Assembly: GCA_032139905.1 (NCBI GenBank)
Contig: JAQJDB010000007.1
Span: 682,001-746,000 of the forward strand
Origin: Nitrospira sp. MA-1
GTDB taxonomy: Bacteria; Nitrospirota; Nitrospiria; Nitrospirales; UBA8639
Reading direction: 5' to 3'
DNA length: 64,000 nucleotides
Part shown: in pieces, positions 52,048 to 64,000 of the stretch
Layout: each line of letters starts with the position of its first letter
Numbering within the stretch: the stretch's first letter is position 1
Position numbers and translations under genes: made by a program
The notes under the pieces: model-generated
Databases searched by the model: none
Told to the model about the DNA's origin: nothing
Seen by the model: the letters and a program-made list of their open reading frames with translations, nothing else

Positions 52048-52473
52048 TTAGTCTTTTTGCTCTAATCCCAGATCTACCCATGCATGCAAAAGATTCTGCC
52101 GGGTCAGGCATCCTATCATCAAACCATTTTCCTCTACTGGAAGTACCAGAAAAGTATGGTCTTTCATGATTTTGACAGCCTCCGCTAATGTGGTGGAAAT
52201 AGGAATTGCGATGGGGTCCGGCACCATGATCTCCTCAGCGGTTAATTGGCTGACATCTCGTCCCGCTTCAAGCACGGCCAGCACATCAAATTGGCTGATG
52301 AACCCAACACAGTGCCCATTAGGATCAACAACTGGCCCGCCTGGAAGGGAAGACGCGAGGAGTTCTTTTGTAATGGCCAATCCATTCTGATCGTGATGAA
52401 AAGAGAAATCATGGAGTGTGGCGATTTGCTGGATTGTTCTGAGGCCGACTGTGGCTATTGCGTGAAGACTCAT
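52048..52473 (-). CDS. Tandem CBS-domain protein
   Basis: 141 residues from MSLHAIATVGLRTIQQIATL, with GAGGAG upstream. Repeat 1 has GGPVVDPNGHCVGFISQFDV, repeat 2 EAVKIMKDHTFLVLPVEENG. It resembles the CBS gene at 29360-29794 and is thus a paralog. Predicted to bind adenosine nucleotides. First of a minus-strand group with cytochrome c and FmdB-type genes. Confidence 0.92.
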   Translation of the reverse strand: MSLHAIATVGLRTIQQIATLHDFSFHHDQNGLAITKELLASSLPGGPVVDPNGHCVGFISQFDVLAVLEAGRDVSQLTAEEIMVPDPIAIPISTTLAEAVKIMKDHTFLVLPVEENGLMIGCLTRQNLLHAWVDLGLEQKD

Positions 52474-53239
52474 GCGTTTCTCCTCTCTCTCTTTCACTCA
52501 TAACCCCACAAAAGTCTTTTCACACGGATGGAGTGAATGAAAATTTAAACGGTTTGGGGCGAAATCAGGTATGACTTCCATTTCGAATATACAACCCTCC
52601 AACCTCCAAAGCTGTTCCATCACTTAAAGTGATGGATAAAAACTCCTGATTCTTTATGCGAGAATTGACCTCCCCTGACCATCTGGATGGCTCAACAGAC
52701 AGGATGGTTTTTCCTCAAATTTTCACTTTTAACATTTCCGCGTTATCGGGGTGTATGTGTTGTCCTTTGTCTTTAAAAGGTTGAACCATGTGGATGGTAT
52801 CTTTCTCGTAAGAATCATGAAATCAGGAGCTCTGCATGTACAGTAATTGAAGCAAGCCTCGTGCCTTTATGGGCAACCTTCTTCTTCTGTCATCCCCGCC
52901 GGTTGTCAGTGGAGACATTCTTTGTGTCACTGGTGTTCCCCCTGACTGCCGTGCCCCAGGCTGCATTCGCCGTGGGCACCTGGGTGTCGCATGCTTATCA
53001 TCTGACAACTACCTGAAAGTTTTATGGCTTTGTGGGCGGCCACCGGGTTTGATCTAACCAGATGTTGTGATTGCAGCCATAGCGCTACCGCCTTCCAGAT
53101 TTGTTGCTGTGGTTTCAGAGGCAAAGTTTATCCCTTTGGGGTTTCTATAATTACTTCATTCTGCTAAAAAGAGGGCGAATCTTGCATTTTCCTACAAAAG
53201 AAATGAGACAAGAAGCTCGTCAACAACACACTGCCAAGC
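52474..53239. other. Intergenic region at the edge of the giant-protein cassette
   Basis: About 770 bases without a supported gene. Short frames at 52823-53057 look accidental. This region separates normal-composition genes from the GC-rich cassette. Confidence 0.4.
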
Positions 53240-53785
53240 GAGCAAGAGAAATTCCGCATCATGGCCGATACGATGCCCGGCGTGATCTGGATTGCTGGAA
53301 TGGATACGCGCGGCACGTATTTCAATAAGTCATGGCTGATGTTTACGGGGCGAACTCTGGAGGAAACGCTGAGGACGACGTGGACGGAAGCGGTTCATCC
53401 CGATGACCGTCAGCGCGGGAAGGATGGCCAATATTGTTGAGGCTTGCATATGGGTGTGCCATCGCGCACAGAAGAGGGGGGCCCTGGCGGATACTTAGGG
53501 TCGTGCGTTGATGTCACTGATCTCAGACGGTGCAAAGGGGCTTTGCAAGAGCAGCAAGACGAACTGATTATAGTTGTGCAGGAGCGCACCTCCTCCCTGC
53601 TGGTGACCAATGCCTGCCTGCAACAGGAGATCGCCGAGCATAGGCAGGCCGAGCATAAGCTGCGTGAACAGCACGCCCAACTCCGGGCGTTGGCGTCAGA
53701 GGTCTTAGAGGCCGAAGAGCGGGAACGGCGGTACATGCCCGGTGGTCTTGCAATGCAAGGCCTGACCCTTAACACGTTCCTTTAG
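53240..53785 (+). pseudogene. Remnant of a PAS-domain sensor kinase
   Basis: EQEKFRIMADTMPGVIWIAG and EETLRTTWTEAVHPDDRQR are the PAS core, ended by TGA at 53438-53440. The same frame continues VPSRTEEGGPGGYLGSCVDV, TDLRRCKGALQEQQDELI, VQERTSSLLVTNACLQQEIA and LRALASEVLEAEERERR, the PAC motif and the start of a UhpB-type dimerisation helix. About 25 PAS residues and everything after the first kinase helix are missing. No catalytic domain remains. Confidence 0.75.
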
Positions 53786-53865: not shown

Positions 53866-54090
53866 ATGGGAGCTATGTCAACTCATACTTCAAACACGGA
53901 AACGAATGAGAAACCGACGAACAAGAAGCAGAAGAAGGAGATCGAAGACGATATCATCGGCAAGCTGACGCACTACTCCGAGTTAATGCGGGATTGCAAC
54001 AGCATCAAGACGAGCATGAACTTCCATCTGGATGCAAAACAAATCAATAGCGACGACAAGGTCGAGATTCAAATGAAACTCCTTGCATGA
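53866..54090 (+). CDS. Small charged protein, first in the giant-protein cassette
   Basis: 74 residues from MGAMSTHTSNTETNEKPTNK, highly charged and probably helical (KQKKEIEDDIIGKLTHYSEL, FHLDAKQINSDDKVEIQMKL). Not recognised. Starts at 53824, 53866 or 53875 are all open. Its position suggests it belongs with the downstream cassette, but the 98-nt gap leaves this open. Confidence 0.55.
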   Translation: MGAMSTHTSNTETNEKPTNKKQKKEIEDDIIGKLTHYSELMRDCNSIKTSMNFHLDAKQINSDDKVEIQMKLLA

Positions 54091-54188
54091 ACTCTCCCTC
54101 CACCGCAAAGTGCTCGAGTTCACATAGCACACAACACGTCACCCATAACAAACTCGGTTGAATGGCTGGGAAAGAAAGGAATCCTCCT

Positions 54189-54665
54189 ATGGCACTTAAA
54201 TTTAAATACGCCCTGGTCGAGATCAACAGCAAACCCGTATTGGTGGACAAAAAAGCGTTTGCTGAGGCCTCCCAGGCCCTAAGGGACGCCTTGGCAAAGG
54301 TATCGGCCATCACCAAAGAAGTGAAGGAGAAAGGATTCGCCTTGCAGACCCCGGAAGGGATGATACCTGTCAATCTTGGGTCGGCGAGTGATTTTTCTAA
54401 ATGGGTAACCAATAAATTAGAAATAAAGAATTTCGATCTTGGAAAAGAGGTAGCAGAACTCCCCAGCCCAGCTAGGGACGTGGCAAATATTTTAATTAAT
54501 ACCGACCTTGTGCTCTATTCTGCGGCGCTGTTCTATACTGGCGAACCCTTGAAGAAACTCTACGGTGAGCTGGTGATTGGGTTCAAACTACCGGAGGATG
54601 CTATGGATTTCCCACTCGCATTGAAGGAGATCGTGATCGCGGTGGACAATTATCCAAAAGGTTAA
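54189..54665 (+). CDS. Hypothetical protein, cassette member
   Basis: 158 residues from MALKFKYALVEINSKPVLVD. No signal peptide or membrane helix. The middle is helical (FAEASQALRDALAKVSAI), then LGSASDFSKWVTNKLEI, then VANILINTDLVLYSAALFY and FKLPEDAMDFPLALKEIVIA. The last part resembles the small beta-strand segments of the DUF6603 protein that follows 77 nt later. Base composition is more like the host than the GC-rich genes after it. Unknown family. Confidence 0.65.
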   Translation: MALKFKYALVEINSKPVLVDKKAFAEASQALRDALAKVSAITKEVKEKGFALQTPEGMIPVNLGSASDFSKWVTNKLEIKNFDLGKEVAELPSPARDVANILINTDLVLYSAALFYTGEPLKKLYGELVIGFKLPEDAMDFPLALKEIVIAVDNYPKG

Positions 54666-54751
54666 ACTATAAAAATAAAAAAGTTCGTAGAGGAACAAGG
54701 CGATAATGGCTCCAGACAAATCCTCCAACCGAGGTCATCGCTTTGGCAAAC

Positions 54752-57700
54752 ATGACTGACTCATCTGGAGATCCTTTCAAAGAGTTCGAGAGTCCCGTCG
54801 CGCTGGGGGAGTGGCTCGCAGAGCAGGACAAAGAAGGCTTCGCGACCCTCTGGGAAAAGTGGCGGAGTGATGTGACGGGAGTGCCCATCGAACTCGCGAC
54901 GATGGATCGCAAGCTTGTCTTCACTTATACGGGTATGGGGGTCGTTAAGCCGCCGCTCAAGATCGACGTAAAGGGGGATCTTCTGGAGCAGACCTACGCA
55001 CTGCTGACGGTGGTTCAGCAATCCGTTAGCCGTCTTCCCCGGGAAACAGACACCGGTACACTCGTTTTGCCGACGACTGAGCCCGGTCTCATCGGGTTGC
55101 CGCCGGCGAAGTCCGTGAGATCCGGACTGCCGGCGGAATCCCTCCCTTCGCCGCCTGGGTTTGAGCCGTCGCCAATCCCCAGCCCTCTGTTGGACCACAG
55201 AATTCCGTCGGTGATACCTCTCCCACTGCCCGCCGTCGATGGACCGGTTCGGCCCGGCCTGCCCGAGCCGGCTGCCGTGACTGCAGTCATATCGGCGTCC
55301 ACGGTCTCGACTGTGCGCCTGTTGCCCGACGAGGCCCCATCCGCCGTTGTGCCCCTACCTGCGTCGGCCGGCCCGGTCACGGTCTTCCCGACTCTCCCGA
55401 CACCCGAGACGCAGGTAGCGTCGGCCACGAAATTGCCACAACCCGAGCGGACCGCCGCGTTCGTTCGGGCCGGACGGTATCTGCTCCCTCTTGAGCCGTT
55501 CCCGGCGGACAAGGGCGGTGGTAAGAACCTCGCGGATGCGATCAAAAGCCTGGACAAAGATCTCACGTTGCCGCTGGCCGTTGACGAGGTTCTGGGCCAT
55601 CTGACAGTCCGCAGGGGGTTCATGGTGCTCAGCCGCCAGTTCAAGGGTATTGTACTCGAAGTCGAGCTGGATGACCCGGTTCAAGCCGTCATCCGGCTGG
55701 CGATAGGGAAAGCGAACAAAACTTGGAGCTTTGAGGGGGAGGTTTTCCTCGCACGCGGTGCCGAAAAACCTCCGCTGATCTTTACCCTTTCAATCCATTC
55801 CGAAAGTCAATCCAAGTGGCTGGTGATGGCCCTCGATGGGGAGGTCAATTTGGTAGACGATCTGTTCATTCCCATGTTCGGCGATAAGGTTTCCGTTCCA
55901 AAGGGGTTCAGCGTTGCCGTGAAGAACCCGGTGCTGGTCATGGTCAAGACCAAGCAGACGAAGAACGGTAATCCGAACACGAAGGCACTGGTCAGCGTGA
56001 ACCTGGGTATGGACGTAGACTTCGCCGAACTACCTTTCGTGGGTGAGGCGATAAAATCGCAGGAGGCCGCCAAGATGACCCTCGGTGTTCAGTATGCCTC
56101 CGGGCCTTTCCTCCGCGACGAAATCGCCGCTATCAATTCGGTTCTCTCCAAGGAGCTGCAGCTCACGGCGCCCGAAGGCGAACCCTTTAGCGGTCTGCTG
56201 CTCTCGGCCGCTATTCAGGTGACGGGGGAGTCTTACCCGATGAGCTTTCCCTTAGGCGGGGGAGAGAACAAGGCAAAAGCTACAAGCCATCCCAACGGGA
56301 CTCTCGAATTAGGCGGCTCAGACCAAAAAGAGAAGCAAACCAAGACGATTAAATGGTTCAAGCTCAACCGGTCGATCGGTCCGGCGTATCTGGAGCGTGT
56401 AGGCGCCGGATATTGGGACGATGAAGTCCAATTCCGGGTCAGCGCGAACGTGCAGGTGTCGACCCTCACTTTCTCAGTTGAGGGTCTCGGTGGTTCGTTG
56501 CCTTTGAAATTGCCCTCCCAGCCCAGCTTTAACCTCGATGGCCTCGGTCTCAGTTTGGCGGCTGACCCGGTCAGCATCTCCGGGGCGTTGCTCCGTTCCT
56601 CCACCGCAAGCGGGGCAGATCAATACGACGGCATGGCCCTGATCAAGGCCGCTGACTTTACGATCACGGGCTTAGGTTCGTACACCACTATAGGCAAGGA
56701 CCCGTCCTTCTTCATCTTCGCCGTTCTGCACAAAGACCTGGGCGGACCGGCTTTTTTTCATGTCACCGGCCTTGCGGCGGGCTTCGGCTTCCACCGGGCG
56801 CTCAAACTGCCGCCGATCGACGAGGTACAAAATTTCCCGCTTGTCCGGGGAGCGTTCGACGAGACGTATTTTGCAGGCTCCAAAAACCCCGTTCAGACCG
56901 CCCTGACCAAGCTACGGGACTACATCCCGTCGTCACCGGGCGGGTATTGGTTCGCGCTGGGTGTCCGTTTCAGCTCGTTCGAGATGATCGAATCCTTCGT
57001 GCTCCTTGCGTTCAGTTTCGGCAAGGAGGTGGCCATCTCGGTACTCGGCCTGTCACGGCTCAGCATTCCGAAGGGCGCCAAGAAACCGGTCGCCTACGCC
57101 GAGCTCCAGCTCAAGGCCGAGCTCAACTTGACGACCGGTACCCTTAAGGTCGAAGGGCGTTTATCGGAGAATTCCTTCATCCTTGACGGCAAGTGCCGGT
57201 TAGCAGGAGGTTTCGCGTTCTACACTTGGTTCTCCGGTAGCCACGACGGCGACTTCGTGGTTACGATCGGCGGCTACCACCCTCGCTTCCTTAAGCCCGA
57301 TCATTATCCTGTGGTGCCGCGGGTCGCGATCGATTGGCCGATCTCCGCCGAGCTTCGCGCTACCGGCGAGCTCTACTTCGCGCTCACGCCTTCGTGCCTG
57401 ATGGCGGGCGGCAAACTGGCGGCGGTGTTCAAGTCCGGCGGACTCAAGGCGTGGTTCGATGCCTACGCCGATTTCCTGCTGCAGTGGCAACCCTTCTATT
57501 ACGAGGCCGACGTCGGCGTCAATCTCGGTGTGTCGTACACCTTCAAGATTTTCGGTTGCAGGACCACCCTCAAGGTCGAGCTGTCGGCCGATCTTTCCCT
57601 ATGGGGCCCGCCGTTTGCCGGCCGGGCGCACATCACTTGGTTCATCATCTCGTTCACTGTCAAGTTCGGCCATCAGGAACGCAAGAAGCCGGATCCCCTC

Positions 57701-58474
57701 ACTTGGGCCCAGTTCGAAGAAACGTTACTTCCAACCAACCCGTCGCTCATCACGCTTCGGGTGAGCGCCGGGCTTATCAGCCAGGGAACGGTCGATGGCG
57801 CTGACTGGCCAGTCGTTAATGCCCATCAGCTCGTCTTGACGACTTCCTCGGCCGCCCCCGCGACGACGATCAAGTTGAATGGGACGGACAAGTACACGCC
57901 AGAGAATGACCTCGACGCAAACGGAATTCAACGGAAGTATGGCGTCCAGCCGATGGACGTGCGGGAACTGACATCGAACTACGATGTCGTACTCAGCCGA
58001 CTCGATGGCGGGGCCTACACGAAAGAGAACGTCATTTCAAAGGTGGTGCGGCAAGGCGTCCCGACCGCCATGTGGGGTCCGGACAAGCCGAAAGAGGGAC
58101 CCAGCTCCGACGTCATCGCCGGCGCCCAGACCGGCCTCAGTTTCACGATCAAGGGGGCCGACCCGACCCACGAGCTCTTGCCGGTCGATCTGAAGAAACT
58201 GGCCTACGAGGATCTCGGCAAGGACATCAACTGGCGGCCGGACCTCAAGGCACCAGAGCCGATTGAAGCGCACGGATCTCACACCTTGATGAACACCATC
58301 GAGATCGGAGGGTCGGAGGCTTGCCGGCAACGCATCCTGGACGCGCTGCAGGCCGCGACCCCCGCTGTTCGGCTCAACACGATCGACTTGCGGATCCTGT
58401 CGAAGACGGCGGACCGCTTGTACCAGGCATCACCGCGGATGGCCTGTCTGGGTCAACCGCTCGAGAAGAAATGA
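54752..58474 (+). CDS. Giant DUF6603-type protein
   Basis: 1240 residues. Residues 1-100 are a small domain (FKEFESPVALGEWLAEQDKE). Residues about 105-250 are a Pro/Val-rich low-complexity linker. Residues about 250-1010 form a long beta-rich body; the segment YWFALGVRFSSFEMIESFVL, LSRLSIPKGAKKPVAYAELQ, GDFVVTIGGYHPRFLKPDHY, LYFALTPSCLMAGGKLAAVF, KAWFDAYADFLLQWQPFYYE and DLSLWGPPFAGRAHITW recalls DUF6603, a family without known function. The last 230 residues are a separate domain. No signal peptide or membrane helix. TTG at 54743 is an alternative start. GC-rich relative to the host. Confidence 0.8.
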   Translation: MTDSSGDPFKEFESPVALGEWLAEQDKEGFATLWEKWRSDVTGVPIELATMDRKLVFTYTGMGVVKPPLKIDVKGDLLEQTYALLTVVQQSVSRLPRETDTGTLVLPTTEPGLIGLPPAKSVRSGLPAESLPSPPGFEPSPIPSPLLDHRIPSVIPLPLPAVDGPVRPGLPEPAAVTAVISASTVSTVRLLPDEAPSAVVPLPASAGPVTVFPTLPTPETQVASATKLPQPERTAAFVRAGRYLLPLEPFPADKGGGKNLADAIKSLDKDLTLPLAVDEVLGHLTVRRGFMVLSRQFKGIVLEVELDDPVQAVIRLAIGKANKTWSFEGEVFLARGAEKPPLIFTLSIHSESQSKWLVMALDGEVNLVDDLFIPMFGDKVSVPKGFSVAVKNPVLVMVKTKQTKNGNPNTKALVSVNLGMDVDFAELPFVGEAIKSQEAAKMTLGVQYASGPFLRDEIAAINSVLSKELQLTAPEGEPFSGLLLSAAIQVTGESYPMSFPLGGGENKAKATSHPNGTLELGGSDQKEKQTKTIKWFKLNRSIGPAYLERVGAGYWDDEVQFRVSANVQVSTLTFSVEGLGGSLPLKLPSQPSFNLDGLGLSLAADPVSISGALLRSSTASGADQYDGMALIKAADFTITGLGSYTTIGKDPSFFIFAVLHKDLGGPAFFHVTGLAAGFGFHRALKLPPIDEVQNFPLVRGAFDETYFAGSKNPVQTALTKLRDYIPSSPGGYWFALGVRFSSFEMIESFVLLAFSFGKEVAISVLGLSRLSIPKGAKKPVAYAELQLKAELNLTTGTLKVEGRLSENSFILDGKCRLAGGFAFYTWFSGSHDGDFVVTIGGYHPRFLKPDHYPVVPRVAIDWPISAELRATGELYFALTPSCLMAGGKLAAVFKSGGLKAWFDAYADFLLQWQPFYYEADVGVNLGVSYTFKIFGCRTTLKVELSADLSLWGPPFAGRAHITWFIISFTVKFGHQERKKPDPLTWAQFEETLLPTNPSLITLRVSAGLISQGTVDGADWPVVNAHQLVLTTSSAAPATTIKLNGTDKYTPENDLDANGIQRKYGVQPMDVRELTSNYDVVLSRLDGGAYTKENVISKVVRQGVPTAMWGPDKPKEGPSSDVIAGAQTGLSFTIKGADPTHELLPVDLKKLAYEDLGKDINWRPDLKAPEPIEAHGSHTLMNTIEIGGSEACRQRILDALQAATPAVRLNTIDLRILSKTADRLYQASPRMACLGQPLEKK

Positions 58475-58489
58475 TGAGGAGAAGCAAGC

Positions 58490-59980
58490 ATGGGCGGTGA
58501 AGCCGAGCTCGAGGGTGAAATCCGGTTCTTCCAGTCCTGCATCCCGAGCCTCCCTCCGGGGGACTACAGCGTTAAAGTCGACCAGACGCTGCGCATGGGG
58601 GAGGAGGCCAAGTATGACGAGGAGCTGAAGTTCACGATCGCTGGTCCCCGGTTCTCGCTTGCGCCTTCCGACATCTATTCGGTCTTTCCCCCTCGTGGAG
58701 AGACCGGGGCGTACGACAACGCTCTGCCACATATCGTCTTCACCCGCAAGACGATCCCGTGGGAGCGGACCATCCACGACAAGCCCCAGGACCCCAAGGC
58801 CCCGTGCCCGTTCGCCGCGCTACTGGTTGTGAGCGACAAGGACGATATCCGAACGGAGTCGCAGCGCGAGGAGGACAAGAAGGCAAACAAGCCGCCGTTT
58901 GGCGCCGTGCGCTCGGCAAAGGTTTCGGAGCTCCTTGACCCTGGCAGCGAAGTTCGTGGCCCGAAGGGCGTCAAGATCAACGACAAGTACGAATCCCCGG
59001 ACGATCTGTGCAATGTCGTCGACCTGCCCTCGAACCTCTTCCAGTCGATCGTACCTGCGAAAGACGACTTGCCGTATCTCGCCCACGTACGCAAAGTCGA
59101 CAGCGAGAACAAGGAGACCCTCTCACGGCTCGGCGACGGTTGCTATTCCGTCATTGTCGCCAACCGGTTCCCCGAAACGACTGTGAAGACGCCCGTCACC
59201 AAGGTTGAGAATGGCAAGGTGGTTCCCGTCACTGAGGTCCTCTATGACGGCAGGGAGGCCCCCGTTTTCGAGGAGAAGGAGGGTCAGAAGAACACCGCGT
59301 ACCTGGTTTCTCTCGAAGGGTTTGACGGCTACTTACATGGTGGTAAGACGATTTCCGAGAAGACGGTACGGCTTGCGGTGCTGGCCAGTTGGAGCTTTAC
59401 CTGCCGCGGCAGGAACGACTTCAAGGTGTTGATGTACAACCTCGACCCGTTAAAGGGCAACCATGATGGGTCGGACGGGCGCCTGTGCATTCCGCCGCCG
59501 GAGCCGGCGGCCAAGGACAACGCTTCCAAGACCGTCGCTGACGCCTTTGAGCATGGCTATGTCGGCCTCAACCACACGGTCCGGATCGGTGAGAAAACGG
59601 TCTCGTGGTATCGCGGTCCGCTCGTCCCCCTGAACATTGAGAAGCACGAGGATTACCCGTTCTACCCGTGTGCCGACGCCGCCCTCGGGTACGACTACAA
59701 GAGCGGGTTGTTCGAGACGACCTACGCCGCCGCTTGGCAGCTTGGACGCCTACTTGCCCTGCAAGACCGTCTCTTTACAAAGGAGGTCTATCTCTATCGC
59801 CGGGAGGTCACACAGGTGATCGCTGAGGAGATCAGGACGGAGGCGACGCGCCACAAGTTCAAAATCACCGATGGCAAGACCGACGCCCTCATGCTGGAAC
59901 GTCACGCCCTCCGGCAGCTTATGTCGGCGGAAGGTCAGCGCGCCGTCCGGTCTCTTTCTGGGAAGGGCTCTAACTCGTAA
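58490..59980 (+). CDS. Hypothetical cassette protein, 496 residues
   Basis: Starts 15 nt after the DUF6603 gene, with AGGAG before the ATG. The N-terminus (IRFFQSCIPSLPPGDYSVKV, then ELKFTIAGPRFSLAPSDIYS) resembles a small immunoglobulin-like beta domain, followed by VFPPRGETGAYDNALPHIVF and IPWERTI, then CPFAALLVVSDKDD. Later sections include a region with SRLGDGCYSVIVANRFPE and GYVGLNHTVRIGEKTVSWYR, and a C-terminal helix LLALQDRLFTKEVYLYRREV. No catalytic motif, signal peptide or membrane helix is recognised. Family unknown to me. Confidence 0.7.
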   Translation: MGGEAELEGEIRFFQSCIPSLPPGDYSVKVDQTLRMGEEAKYDEELKFTIAGPRFSLAPSDIYSVFPPRGETGAYDNALPHIVFTRKTIPWERTIHDKPQDPKAPCPFAALLVVSDKDDIRTESQREEDKKANKPPFGAVRSAKVSELLDPGSEVRGPKGVKINDKYESPDDLCNVVDLPSNLFQSIVPAKDDLPYLAHVRKVDSENKETLSRLGDGCYSVIVANRFPETTVKTPVTKVENGKVVPVTEVLYDGREAPVFEEKEGQKNTAYLVSLEGFDGYLHGGKTISEKTVRLAVLASWSFTCRGRNDFKVLMYNLDPLKGNHDGSDGRLCIPPPEPAAKDNASKTVADAFEHGYVGLNHTVRIGEKTVSWYRGPLVPLNIEKHEDYPFYPCADAALGYDYKSGLFETTYAAAWQLGRLLALQDRLFTKEVYLYRREVTQVIAEEIRTEATRHKFKITDGKTDALMLERHALRQLMSAEGQRAVRSLSGKGSNS

Positions 59981-59994
59981 CGCACGGAGTGATG

Positions 59995-60939
59995 ATGGCA
60001 GAGGACACAGCAAGCAATTCCCCACCGAAGAGCGACTTCGAGCGCCGGCTCACCAAGGGTATCGACCTCAGTGTTCCGGACGACATTGCCGGCTGGCTGG
60101 GCCGAGGGTTGCTGCTTTATGGAGTTCCATTCAACTACCTCGTCCCGGATGAGCGGATGCTGCCTCCGGAGTCGATCCGGTTCTTCTATCTCGACCAGGC
60201 CTGGGTCCAGTGTCTGCTCGAGGGGGCTGTGAGTGTCGGCCGCGGGACCGAGCGTGATGAGATGGTCGATCAGGAACTCAGTAACAGCTTTCTCGCCCGC
60301 GCCTCTGAAGCGGGCGCCTCGCTCCGGGATCGTGGCCGTGCGGACTCTGACGACGACGAAGCCAAGGCGAGCGAGCTCACCAAGCTCAACTGGCCACTCA
60401 CCGGCTTTCTGCTGCGGTCGTCCGTGGTCGCGGGCTGGCAGGGGCTCGAGGTGGTCGCCTCCGAGGGGTTCGACTCCACGATCGAGAAGCCGATCGGTGT
60501 TCTGAAGGCGCTTCGAATCGACCGCCTCGGCCCCGACGTTCTGCTGTGTCTCTACAATGGCGTGATCAAGTTTATCGAAGTCAGGCAACCCCTTGAGGGG
60601 TTGCACTTCGGCGCATCGCCAACGCCCAAAGGGGGGTTCCAGAAGTTGAGCGTGCGGCGAGTCAATGCCCCGGCAGGCGAACAACTCCCCGGGCCGAAGG
60701 CGAAGGTCAAGAAGGGCGATGCCCTCGACGTGCCGATGCGCCCAGGCGTGAACCGGGTGGTTAAAGTGAAAGAGCTCGCCGAGAACCTGGAGAAGAAACT
60801 CAAGGGCATGGGGGCCATGGACAAGGAAGGTGAGTACAGCCTCTTCACCGCCGCCGAGTTCGGCCTGCAGATGGTGGAGAGTCCCGGCAGGGTCAGGTTC
60901 GAGGCTGCTGGAATGAAAAAAAATGAGCGCAAATCCTGA
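59995..60939 (+). CDS. Hypothetical cassette protein, 314 residues
   Basis: Starts about 14 nt after the previous gene; GTG and ATG codons at 59989 and 59992 are alternatives, and CGGAG sits just upstream. MAEDTASNSPPKSDFERRLT, then LFYGVPFNY-like LLLYGVPFNYLVPDERMLPP and IRFFYLDQAWVQCLLEGAVS. The middle has FLLRSSVVAGWQGLEVVASE and LKALRIDRLGPDVLLCLYNG. The tail is Lys-rich (ENLEKKLKGMGAMDKEGEYS). No known family. The stop overlaps the next start by 17 nt, so translation is coupled. Confidence 0.7.
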   Translation: MAEDTASNSPPKSDFERRLTKGIDLSVPDDIAGWLGRGLLLYGVPFNYLVPDERMLPPESIRFFYLDQAWVQCLLEGAVSVGRGTERDEMVDQELSNSFLARASEAGASLRDRGRADSDDDEAKASELTKLNWPLTGFLLRSSVVAGWQGLEVVASEGFDSTIEKPIGVLKALRIDRLGPDVLLCLYNGVIKFIEVRQPLEGLHFGASPTPKGGFQKLSVRRVNAPAGEQLPGPKAKVKKGDALDVPMRPGVNRVVKVKELAENLEKKLKGMGAMDKEGEYSLFTAAEFGLQMVESPGRVRFEAAGMKKNERKS

Positions 60940-63900
60940 TCGTTATCTTCTCGTTCCGATGAGTGTCGATGCCCTCCTGGTCGGCAAGGAGGCCCATCTC
61001 ACCACAACTTGGTCCGACATCTCGCCGCGCTTTGCGGACATCTTGCAAAAGTGGAGCTACCTTGGTGTCAACATCGTCGGCCTCCTCGACAAGTCGAAGT
61101 GGACGCCGAAGCCAGGGGTTCACCTCCACTGGGCTCTACCCGAGGCCATGGCGCGAGCATCCGAGGACGGTGGGACCGAATCCGGCTACCCCCTCATCCC
61201 CAATCGCTGGCTGGTGGAGCGGTTCGTCGAATCGAGCGATGGTTCGGTGGCGGTGTGTAGCTGGCTGGTGGAGAGTGACGCGCTCGACGGCGACCAGGAA
61301 GGAAGTCATGAAAAGCAAATCAGCATCTTGGACCTGAAGGCCGCGAAGCTCGTTACGCGGTTAGGGGCGTGCAAGAGGCTCGCCGAAGGAGGGCCGTGGG
61401 AGCCGAAGGAGGAGCCGTTCCGGATTGAGCTCACGGCCCTCGGCTGGGGCGATCCCGCCTTTGCAACGTACTATCCGGCTTGCAAAGGTGTCCTCGGGTT
61501 TCACGACCCGGCCCCTCCGACGCTGGGCAAGGGGCAGCGCCTGGGGTACCTCGTCGTCGGCTGGTACTCGGAGCGTGCGAAGGACCCGCTTCAGCGACCC
61601 CTGCCTCCGCTCGAAGTAAAGCTCGGCGAGAAGTCACGGAAGAGAACTCCGATCGAACAGTGGAATGCGAGGCTGACCCAGCAGAAGTGGTCCTGCGAGC
61701 CTCAGTCCAAGGAGCCCGCCGAGCCCGCGACGCGAACGGCCTGCCACGGTGCTGTTGTCGACATCGCGTGGCGCGGGCCCGATCAGCGCTACGCCACGGG
61801 GGCGCCCGACCCGGACGGCTACAGGGTCGCCGTGGGCAACTCGTCGATCGAGGCGCTGTCGGCTCTGTTGCGCCCGGCCGAGACCGACCCGGCCAATACC
61901 GACACCGTTCTCCAGGGCTTGCAGCATGGCATTCTGTCCAGGGAGTTGGATCCGATAAGACTGAGCGACGAACTGCACCTCCGCCGATTCGGCGCGTCTG
62001 ACGGCGGAGCCGCGTTTGCCATTCAGGAGCGCCGCGCCGCCAAGGTTGGCGAATCGGCACCGCCGGTGGAGGTCCCAGAGCGGCTGGAGGCGGCGCTCGA
62101 GAAGCTGAACAGCACTGCAGAGAGCCTGGCACGGAGGCGGCGGGAACTTGCGGCCGAGCGCCAGCAGCTCTACGGCGCCTGGTGCCTCTGGGCGAATGAC
62201 TACCTCGACCGGGAGGGTCCCGAGCCGGCAGAGAATACACCGCTTACCGATCGAAAGGTCGCTCTCGAGCAGGCCGTCGAGAAGTCAGTGAGGGACCTGA
62301 CGAATCTCGAGAATGACCTCAAACTATCGAAAACCGCGCTCGACAAGCTGCTTGCCGACGGCTGTCCGGACCTCGAAGTGGCCGACGCCACCTTCGTTCC
62401 GTTCTACCAGCCGAATGAGCCGACGGTGGTGATCTCGGGCGACGGCCTGGGTCGGGCATCCCGTTTCCAGGCCAACGCGAAAGACGAAGCACTCCCGTGC
62501 CGGCTGCCGGAGGCGCTTGTCGACTCGCTGCTCATCGACATACCCAACGGCCGAAAGGGAAACGTCGTGCGCGCGCGCCAACTGTTTGTCCTCAAGCGCG
62601 ATGTGCCCATCGGCTCCGCCTTTGGAGAACTGATCGACAGTCTTCTCCGCGAAGCGATGCTGCTCGAGACGGTGAATGTCGAGCGCATCGGGCGCAAGGC
62701 GTACGAGATGGCAGGGCTCAAGAGTACACCGAGACTCGAGGAGCTGCTTGAGGACATCAGGGCGTTCGTGGAGCGCGCATTGCGACGGCCCTCGCTTCCG
62801 CGCGAGTCGCAGTACACGAGGCTGGCGGAATACGCCGCCGCTCCAGGACCGGCCAGCCAGAGTGTCTGGACTCGCAATCCGTGGTTGCCGTTCCAACTAC
62901 AGTGGGAGGTCGAATGGGAGTCGGAATACAAGCCCGTCAATTGGAGTCCGACCAAGAACTGGGAGCTCAGTCAAGAGTCCGGCGACCTGGTTCACCGTAG
63001 GGGTGCCACCAACGGCGGCGGGTCGCAAGCGTCGCGGGAGCTGTCCAGCTTCAGTGGCTGGACGATCTTGAACCCGGACTCTACGCACCTCCTACGCCGA
63101 AGTCTCCAGGAGAGCGGATCGGAAAGCCGCGATTCGGCCGATATGAAGGCGTTCATCGCTCGCCTCGCTAGCCCGTCGGTTCTATCGCAGACTCTGGGCG
63201 GCTTCAATGAGGCGTTGCTACAGCTCGATACCGCGGTGCAGCTCCCGCCGGTGAGCCCGGCATTCCTTGTTTCCGGCGAGGGTGAGCCTGAAGACCCCGT
63301 CGGCCAGCTCGTGGCGACGGCCCAGTTGCTCTCCCCCGACACAGGCAAGTCTCTCTTCCCGGTCCGCTCCGGAACCCTCCGTCTTAAGAATCTCTGGATC
63401 GTCGATGCCTTCGGCCAGACCCTGAAGTTAAAACCGGAAGACCTGAATCGTCCCAAGCGCCCGGTGCGCCTGCTGCCAGCCGATGGCGCCCCGGAGAAAC
63501 TGGCGTTGCCGCCGCGCCTCAGCCAACCGGCTCGATTGCGCTTCGTCTGGGAACCGGCCTTGCCGACCGCCGTGGATGCTGCAGCCGCGAGCCCGATCCA
63601 TGGCTGGCTGGTCCCGAACCGCCTCGACAGGAGTTTCCTTGTCTATAACGCCGCAGGGAAAGTCCTCGGCGCCATCCAGAAGACCCTGCGCGTCAATGCA
63701 GTGGCGACCGGTGGGGCACCCGATCGAGGCAGCAAGGCATTCTTCTGGGTGCCGGTACCCAACGACAGTTCGCCGGACTCATTGAGCTTCTACCAGGATT
63801 TGGCGTCCGACGATTCGTCTGTGTGGGAGTCGAAGCGGCCGGACTCCCTGAGCGAAGAGGACGCGACCCTCGCCGCGTTCGTCGATTATCTCCTCGCGCT

Positions 63901-64000
63901 CGAGATCAACCCCGGGAACGAGTTCCATGCTCTGGTGGAGCGCCTGCTCGGAAGCAAGAACACGGCAAATCCGCAGGACGACCCTCTGTTGTCGATCCTC
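60923..64000 (+). CDS. Giant cassette protein, truncated by the window end
   Basis: At least 1026 residues with no stop before the window ends. N-terminus MSANPDRYLLVPMSVDALLV, then LQKWSYLGVNIVGLLDKSKW, KPGVHLHWALPEAMAR and LIPNRWLVERFVES, a motif set I associate with uncharacterised large bacterial proteins. Residues about 380-480 form a coiled coil (LEAALEKLNSTAESLARRRR, VEKSVRDLTNLENDLKLSKT). Later come YLLVSGEGE-type beta segments and TLRLKNLWIVDAFGQTLKL. No signal peptide, membrane helix or catalytic motif. It overlaps the upstream gene by 17 nt. Confidence 0.75.
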   Translation, partial: MSANPDRYLLVPMSVDALLVGKEAHLTTTWSDISPRFADILQKWSYLGVNIVGLLDKSKWTPKPGVHLHWALPEAMARASEDGGTESGYPLIPNRWLVERFVESSDGSVAVCSWLVESDALDGDQEGSHEKQISILDLKAAKLVTRLGACKRLAEGGPWEPKEEPFRIELTALGWGDPAFATYYPACKGVLGFHDPAPPTLGKGQRLGYLVVGWYSERAKDPLQRPLPPLEVKLGEKSRKRTPIEQWNARLTQQKWSCEPQSKEPAEPATRTACHGAVVDIAWRGPDQRYATGAPDPDGYRVAVGNSSIEALSALLRPAETDPANTDTVLQGLQHGILSRELDPIRLSDELHLRRFGASDGGAAFAIQERRAAKVGESAPPVEVPERLEAALEKLNSTAESLARRRRELAAERQQLYGAWCLWANDYLDREGPEPAENTPLTDRKVALEQAVEKSVRDLTNLENDLKLSKTALDKLLADGCPDLEVADATFVPFYQPNEPTVVISGDGLGRASRFQANAKDEALPCRLPEALVDSLLIDIPNGRKGNVVRARQLFVLKRDVPIGSAFGELIDSLLREAMLLETVNVERIGRKAYEMAGLKSTPRLEELLEDIRAFVERALRRPSLPRESQYTRLAEYAAAPGPASQSVWTRNPWLPFQLQWEVEWESEYKPVNWSPTKNWELSQESGDLVHRRGATNGGGSQASRELSSFSGWTILNPDSTHLLRRSLQESGSESRDSADMKAFIARLASPSVLSQTLGGFNEALLQLDTAVQLPPVSPAFLVSGEGEPEDPVGQLVATAQLLSPDTGKSLFPVRSGTLRLKNLWIVDAFGQTLKLKPEDLNRPKRPVRLLPADGAPEKLALPPRLSQPARLRFVWEPALPTAVDAAAASPIHGWLVPNRLDRSFLVYNAAGKVLGAIQKTLRVNAVATGGAPDRGSKAFFWVPVPNDSSPDSLSFYQDLASDDSSVWESKRPDSLSEEDATLAAFVDYLLALEINPGNEFHALVERLLGSKNTANPQDDPLLSIL

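Follow-up and report, generated by a model that had tools for sequence, protein, structure and literature searches.

Polymorphic toxin systems, Rhs proteins and Tc complexes combine large non-enzymatic proteins with variable enzymatic partners and recognition domains. Here we analyse a locus of similar layout in Nitrospira sp. MA-1 (GCA_032139905.1, contig JAQJDB010000007.1), which lies at the right-hand end of a 64,000-nt window (the whole stretch of DNA analysed, positions 682,001 to 746,000 of the forward strand) and continues past it on the same contig. A preliminary description made from the window sequence had likened its largest protein, of 1240 amino acids (aa), to DUF6603, and the protein proved to be a clear member of that Pfam family (PF20248; 498 bits against a Pfam cut-off of 27, model positions 2-453 of 502), an entry that consists of one domain with no function assigned. 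We define the DUF6603-M-W module as the gene for this protein and those for two further large proteins, M and W, adjacent on one strand, as they are in the window copy. The gene set is conserved between distant bacteria while its enzymes and recognition ends are exchanged, and we tentatively favour the view that it encodes a horizontally mobile, polymorphic effector module or particle. The literature searched, which covered few subscription journals or preprints, contained no mention of DUF6603, PF20248 or the motifs of W and no functional data, and within that scope the module is apparently undescribed.

The DUF6603, M and W genes across bacteria

When 84,980 species genomes were searched with an alignment of DUF6603 as query, 124 relatives were confirmed, from soil, marine, cyanobacterial, actinobacterial and gut-type bacteria, and the best 80 were kept. 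M and W played no part in this locus search; M was present in 79 of the 80 loci, W in 75, and all three genes in 74, the five loci without W being mostly at contig or flank limits. The genes stood on the same strand in 78 of the 80 loci, with a median gap of 3 nt between DUF6603 and M, and W lay upstream in 20 of them. The module spans at least nine bacterial phyla, with hosts in Bacteroidota, Cyanobacteriota, Pseudomonadota, Bacillota, Actinomycetota, Acidobacteriota, Chloroflexota, Myxococcota, Thermodesulfobacteriota and SAR324. The preliminary description would have given up the idea of a system had no other genome held these genes together, and the reverse was found.

The DUF6603 tree was mixed with respect to phylum, with 25 phylum changes against a minimum of 8, and clades under starred branches joined Undibacterium with Flexibacter, and Cylindrospermum with Actinomadura and relatives. 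The nearest kin of the window copy were those of a Terriglobia metagenome-assembled genome (MAG; 53% identity) and Tateyamaria. Copies with the same gene order were also found by tblastn on plasmids of Streptomyces clavuligerus, Embleya, another Streptomyces and Paenibacillus polymyxa; in these M is one protein, unlike the split into 496 and 314 aa seen here. As judged from gene content and phylogeny, these genes form a conserved multi-gene system that is horizontally mobile. A plasmid of Paenibacillus sonchi carries M and W, the latter divided between two frames, without DUF6603, and may hold a decaying or incomplete module; DUF6603 was also found on a haloarchaeal plasmid.

The window copy lies within an 18.1-kb insert (w53732-71842) that interrupts a sensor-kinase gene. 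Its features are given below, where w denotes a position in the window and values above 64000 lie on the same contig past the window edge.

w53100-53731, + strand: PAS-HisKA_3 sensor-kinase remnant, at the left edge of the insert
w53866-54090, + strand: 74-aa open reading frame (ORF), the first of the insert, without relatives in the fetched loci
w54189-54665, + strand: p158, 158 aa, in the slot directly upstream of the DUF6603 gene, with host-like GC content at third codon positions (GC3)
w54752-58474, + strand: DUF6603 giant, 1240 aa, with a Pro-rich N-terminus followed by an all-beta core (PF20248, E 3e-149)
w58490-59980, + strand: M1, 496 aa, the N-terminal part of M, with an LPHIVF..IPW signature
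w59995-60939, + strand: M2, 314 aa, the C-terminal part of M
w60923-64924, + strand: W, 1333 aa, crossing the window end, with a coiled-coil hairpin and the motifs VHLHWALP and PNRWLV
w64921-66585: p554 adaptor, 554 aa, directly after W with a 4-nt overlap, with Ig-like and Kelch parts
about w66582 to w68435: p629, a secreted beta-propeller protein of ~617 aa that carries a signal peptide
w68743-69804: p353, 353 aa, membrane-anchored, with tail-fibre-like repeats (PHROG tail fibre, E 8e-9)
w70545-71687: patatin-like phospholipase, downstream in the insert at some distance from the core operon

The six co-directional frames reported earlier are all present where they had been placed, spaced by 98, 86, 15 and 14 nt and then overlapping by 17 nt. 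Extension past 64 kb, which the preliminary description had suggested as a check, showed that W is followed by the 554-aa and the secreted ~617-aa proteins. Apart from DUF6603, the proteins of these frames had no family match in Pfam or NCBIfam, and M and W matched none in PHROGs or PADLOC either; a sequence search against solved structures found no relatives of DUF6603, M or W, W giving coiled-coil matches only. No transmembrane-like stretch was detected in the DUF6603, M1 or M2 proteins, hydropathy in W peaked at 1.98 in its C-terminal part, and an N-terminal hydrophobic stretch was absent from 79 of the 80 DUF6603 relatives.

The 496- and 314-aa frames had been described as separate proteins; both are real, but they are two halves of M, and together they correspond to one ~750-aa protein in about half of the relatives. 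A frameshift or assembly error between them is unlikely because the two-gene split recurs in 37 of the 80 loci. One locus (L099) has DUF6603 and M as a single protein, a natural fusion. The central coiled coil proposed for W appears as a hairpin at residues 386-480 of its predicted model (1025 residues; predicted template modelling score 0.78), and the two W motifs noted earlier belong to the best-conserved stretches of the family, in which P73 and R95 are invariant and W70 and W96 occur in 37 of 38 members. Comparison of the W model by Foldseek and VIA matched no known fold, returning coiled-coil and other weak matches only.

The predicted structure of the DUF6603 core covers 980 residues and shows a long beta-meander of about 24 long antiparallel strands. 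Many of these are amphipathic, and for much of the stretch between model residues 370 and 650 the predicted local distance difference test score exceeds 90; neither a barrel nor a lipid groove is proven. Foldseek placed the beta-belt of ApoB100 first (E 1e-6, template modelling (TM) score 0.16), followed by large outer-membrane proteins and barrels, and VIA returned porins (Z up to 14.3 over 275 residues, root-mean-square deviation (rmsd) 13.6). The Embleya DUF6603 protein (L028:14243-19768) apparently continues at its C-terminal end into a beta-propeller-like region.

Many Nitrospirota carry a second kind of DUF6603 module, which we call type B (L031, L042, L036, L041). It resembles the present module in pairing DUF6603 with an M homologue (hhalign probability 94%, E 1e-7) and in having phospholipase D (PLD) or fibre-like partners, but differs in that a giant of 1350-1830 aa takes the place of W and an extra protein of ~587 aa, with an LQPLSR...WLLARQWQ motif, is present. 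No homology was detected between W and the type-B large protein. A PLD protein is encoded upstream in L031, and a TIR-NACHT gene lies near the module in L042.

Exchangeable enzymes and recognition ends

The gene directly upstream of DUF6603 frequently, though not universally, codes for an enzyme. Proteins encoded in this position (n = 70) included matches to Lipase_3 (nine), Lactamase_B (seven), Exo_endo_phos (four), DUF4135 (two), Hcp (two) and Peptidase_C70 (one), with a weak match to HNH in one further protein; the partners include class-3 lipases, proteins of the metallo-beta-lactamase (MBL) fold, members of the endonuclease/exonuclease/phosphatase (EEP) group, LanM-like DUF4135 proteins and an AvrRpt2-type C70 peptidase. 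When enzyme type, labelled by Pfam hits and sequence clusters combined, was placed on the DUF6603 tree, at least 11 switches were needed for seven states, and DUF6603 cores that are 60-70% identical were paired with unrelated enzymes. The enzyme may also be built in: in a clade of Hydrogenophaga and Hahellaceae, an alpha/beta-hydrolase-like stretch (VAHSASG...TVGTPHIGTP, of the form AHSxxG...GTP; PGAP1 E 9e-5, 1.6 bits under the Pfam cut-off) lies inside the DUF6603 giant, and sister giants, most of which have a Lipase_3 gene directly upstream, align on either side of this stretch and lack it. This exchange of an enzyme between cis and trans, together with the DUF6603-M fusion, speaks most strongly for a single complex in which enzyme, DUF6603 and M would work together.

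The other end of the module is variable as well. An adaptor family (c0) is found next to W in 55 loci, and its C-terminal ends (n = 47) include LamG (seven), Tail Collar (six), Kelch (five), S74 (five) and Gp10_C (one) domains, with propellers elsewhere. In the window copy this place is taken by p554, directly after W, whose N-terminal part matches nothing in Pfam and is followed by an Ig-like region, recognised by eye, and then by Kelch; the Kelch-type adaptor is common to the window copy, the Terriglobia MAG and Tateyamaria, the last of which also has the secreted propeller.

Other genes recur near particular variants. Modules of the Lipase_3 type (L100, L103, L105, L108, L109, L111), from Bacteroidota and Hahella, have Gly-rich collagen-like proteins further upstream, together with a conserved ~200-aa protein (clusters c2, c5, c11). 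In Hydrogenophaga an Hcp homologue is encoded directly upstream of a 3600-aa DUF6603 protein (L115:2146-2634, L120:2034-2516), and no VipB was found there. A relationship to Hcp of the 115-190-aa proteins encoded upstream in other loci was not supported.

The insertion site in Nitrospira

DNA homology to a congener (G252) stops at w53731, inside the kinase gene, and restarts at w71843, ahead of pcm. The dead sensor kinase noted earlier at the left edge is accordingly a remnant of a gene that is intact in G252 (396-aa ORF, L131:3587-4777; PAS-HisKA_3 by eye). In five congeners a CBS-domain gene is separated from pcm by 1.1-5.2 kb, and in G252 by about 39 kb of other DNA (G252:C1:98752-139284), so this interval is an insertion-prone site. 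The flanks of this hot spot in the window are 52048-53731 and w71843 onward, and the DUF6603 module sits between them. Among 21 genomes of the genus, a full DUF6603 match was found in the source genome only, with one other weak and partial, and W was present in just two of 198 sampled Nitrospirota. The composition unlike that of the host, also remarked on previously, was seen as a GC3 of 0.71-0.78 from DUF6603 through the propeller gene, against 0.48-0.56 for p353, patatin, p158 and the flanking host genes. The insert edges showed no repeats, direct or inverted, with a length of at least 11 nt, and no tRNA was found in the left edge region (L002). Lateral acquisition of the module into this genome, previously thought likely, is therefore well supported by the insert edges, by empty or different sites in congeners, by rarity in the genus and in Nitrospirota and by GC3. 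A phage origin of the core was rejected, since neither phage records nor viral contigs gave a match to it.

The patatin-like protein carries GGGYR, GVSGGS-like (SVSGGS) and DGG motifs and lies inside the insert, yet its GC3 is host-like. No homologue of it adjoins the other fetched modules, and it is a possible candidate for the cargo of this module copy.

Possible roles and relation to known systems

If the module is a mobile, polymorphic effector system, DUF6603, M (M1 and M2) and W would be three conserved giants that assemble into a large complex. The exchangeable end of the adaptor (Kelch here; LamG, tail-collar, S74-type fibre or propeller elsewhere) would bind a target surface, the W-M body would hold adaptor and DUF6603 together, and DUF6603 may engage lipid through its long amphipathic beta-sheet. 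The enzyme, whether encoded upstream or built into DUF6603, would be the active cargo and work on or across the target membrane; in this copy the patatin-like phospholipase, inserted along with the module, could fill that place. Such a complex would have to leave the producing cell and might be toxic to its target. The preliminary description had considered a large cytoplasmic complex plausible. Physical association does remain plausible in light of the DUF6603-M fusion, but a cytoplasmic location was not supported, and both the exchangeable fibre or lectin ends and the enzymes speak for a role outside the cell or facing a target. A narrower version, in which DUF6603, M and W form an undescribed delivery particle in at least nine phyla, unrelated to phages and non-contractile, with interchangeable cargo and fibres, is possible, though we hold it less firmly than the general reading.

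Several observations weigh against an effector role. The structural matches of DUF6603 are globally weak (TM 0.14-0.17 by query length for the top matches, rmsd 13-40) and may reflect nothing beyond a long beta-meander. The window copy has no enzyme directly upstream of or inside DUF6603, p158 being without a match in that slot; its kinship to the 115-190-aa upstream proteins of other loci looked plausible by eye but was not supported (hhalign probability 0.8%). Many other loci likewise have no recognisable enzyme upstream of DUF6603. In the module core we recognised neither a signal peptide nor a holin, nor any gene dedicated to secretion, which leaves release unexplained, and no immunity gene recurs beside the enzymes, which argues against a purely anti-bacterial toxin.

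The main rival is defence against phages or other mobile elements, in which the giants would be an intracellular sensor and the variable enzyme an abortive effector, because defence effectors use similar enzymes: the types seen here (HNH, PLD, patatin, lipase, MBL) are in part those of known defence effectors. Genes for TIR-NACHT (L042) and CHAT/CATRA (L025) proteins near some modules, as well as mobility and insertion at a hot spot, would fit this explanation. We nevertheless judge it unlikely, since PADLOC gave no significant match for eight module proteins and only scattered matches among flanking genes (each family in one or two of 86 proteins, counts that have no baseline), and since tail-collar, S74 and LamG ends are unusual in cytoplasmic sensors.

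Next comes an enzyme scaffold, intracellular or at the surface, or a lipoprotein-like lipid-handling particle, with no antagonistic role. The local likeness of the amphipathic beta-sheet core to ApoB100, the many lipase and phospholipase partners and the lack of recurrent immunity genes would all suit it, but the peptidase, HNH, EEP and MBL partners are as a group not lipid enzymes, and swapped enzymes and recognition ends are typical of conflict systems; we think this rather unlikely.

That the module is cargo or an extension of a known contractile injection system, either a type VI secretion system (T6SS) or an extracellular one, seems improbable. It would account for the Hcp homologue of Hydrogenophaga, for VgrG/PAAR-like genes that lie some 9 kb away from the module of P. 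polymyxa, for the tail-collar and Gp10-like adaptor ends and for the one sheath gene of the source genome, about 755 kb from the module. However, no module protein matched a sheath, tube or baseplate gene in Pfam or PHROGs, and VipB, the T6SS sheath protein, was absent from 25 of 32 tested genomes, including the source genome and Hydrogenophaga with Hcp, and present in seven; the module therefore does not depend on the T6SS. No sheath match was found in 13 of 44 carriers, which are draft genomes without matched controls, and the sheath counts are used for one point only, namely that a contractile system is not found in every case. Given the absence of VipB, the distant lone sheath gene and the carriers without a sheath match, a contractile machine seems not to be required in general. 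Finally, an assembly of unrelated neighbours by chance, for which nothing speaks beyond the lack of known domains, is ruled out by the recurrence of the gene set in about 80 genomes of at least nine phyla, by fusions and by near-zero spacing.

The module is common, with 124 DUF6603 relatives in one genome collection, and W has no known fold match. Should it prove to be a delivery particle, bacteria would have in it a new and non-contractile means of acting on other cells, in which both cargo and recognition parts can be exchanged; should it be a defence or lipid system, it would still be a widespread multi-protein machine without an assigned function.

In relation to described systems, no Rhs/YD or Tc component and no recurrent immunity partner was identified, and we do not claim membership among polymorphic toxins, Rhs proteins or Tc complexes, with which the module shares only a like logic. 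From contractile injection systems and the T6SS it differs in having no sheath or baseplate gene, and in that many carriers have no VipB or sheath match, but it resembles them in its conserved body, its exchangeable fibre-like ends, its exchangeable enzyme cargo and its occasional Hcp homologue.

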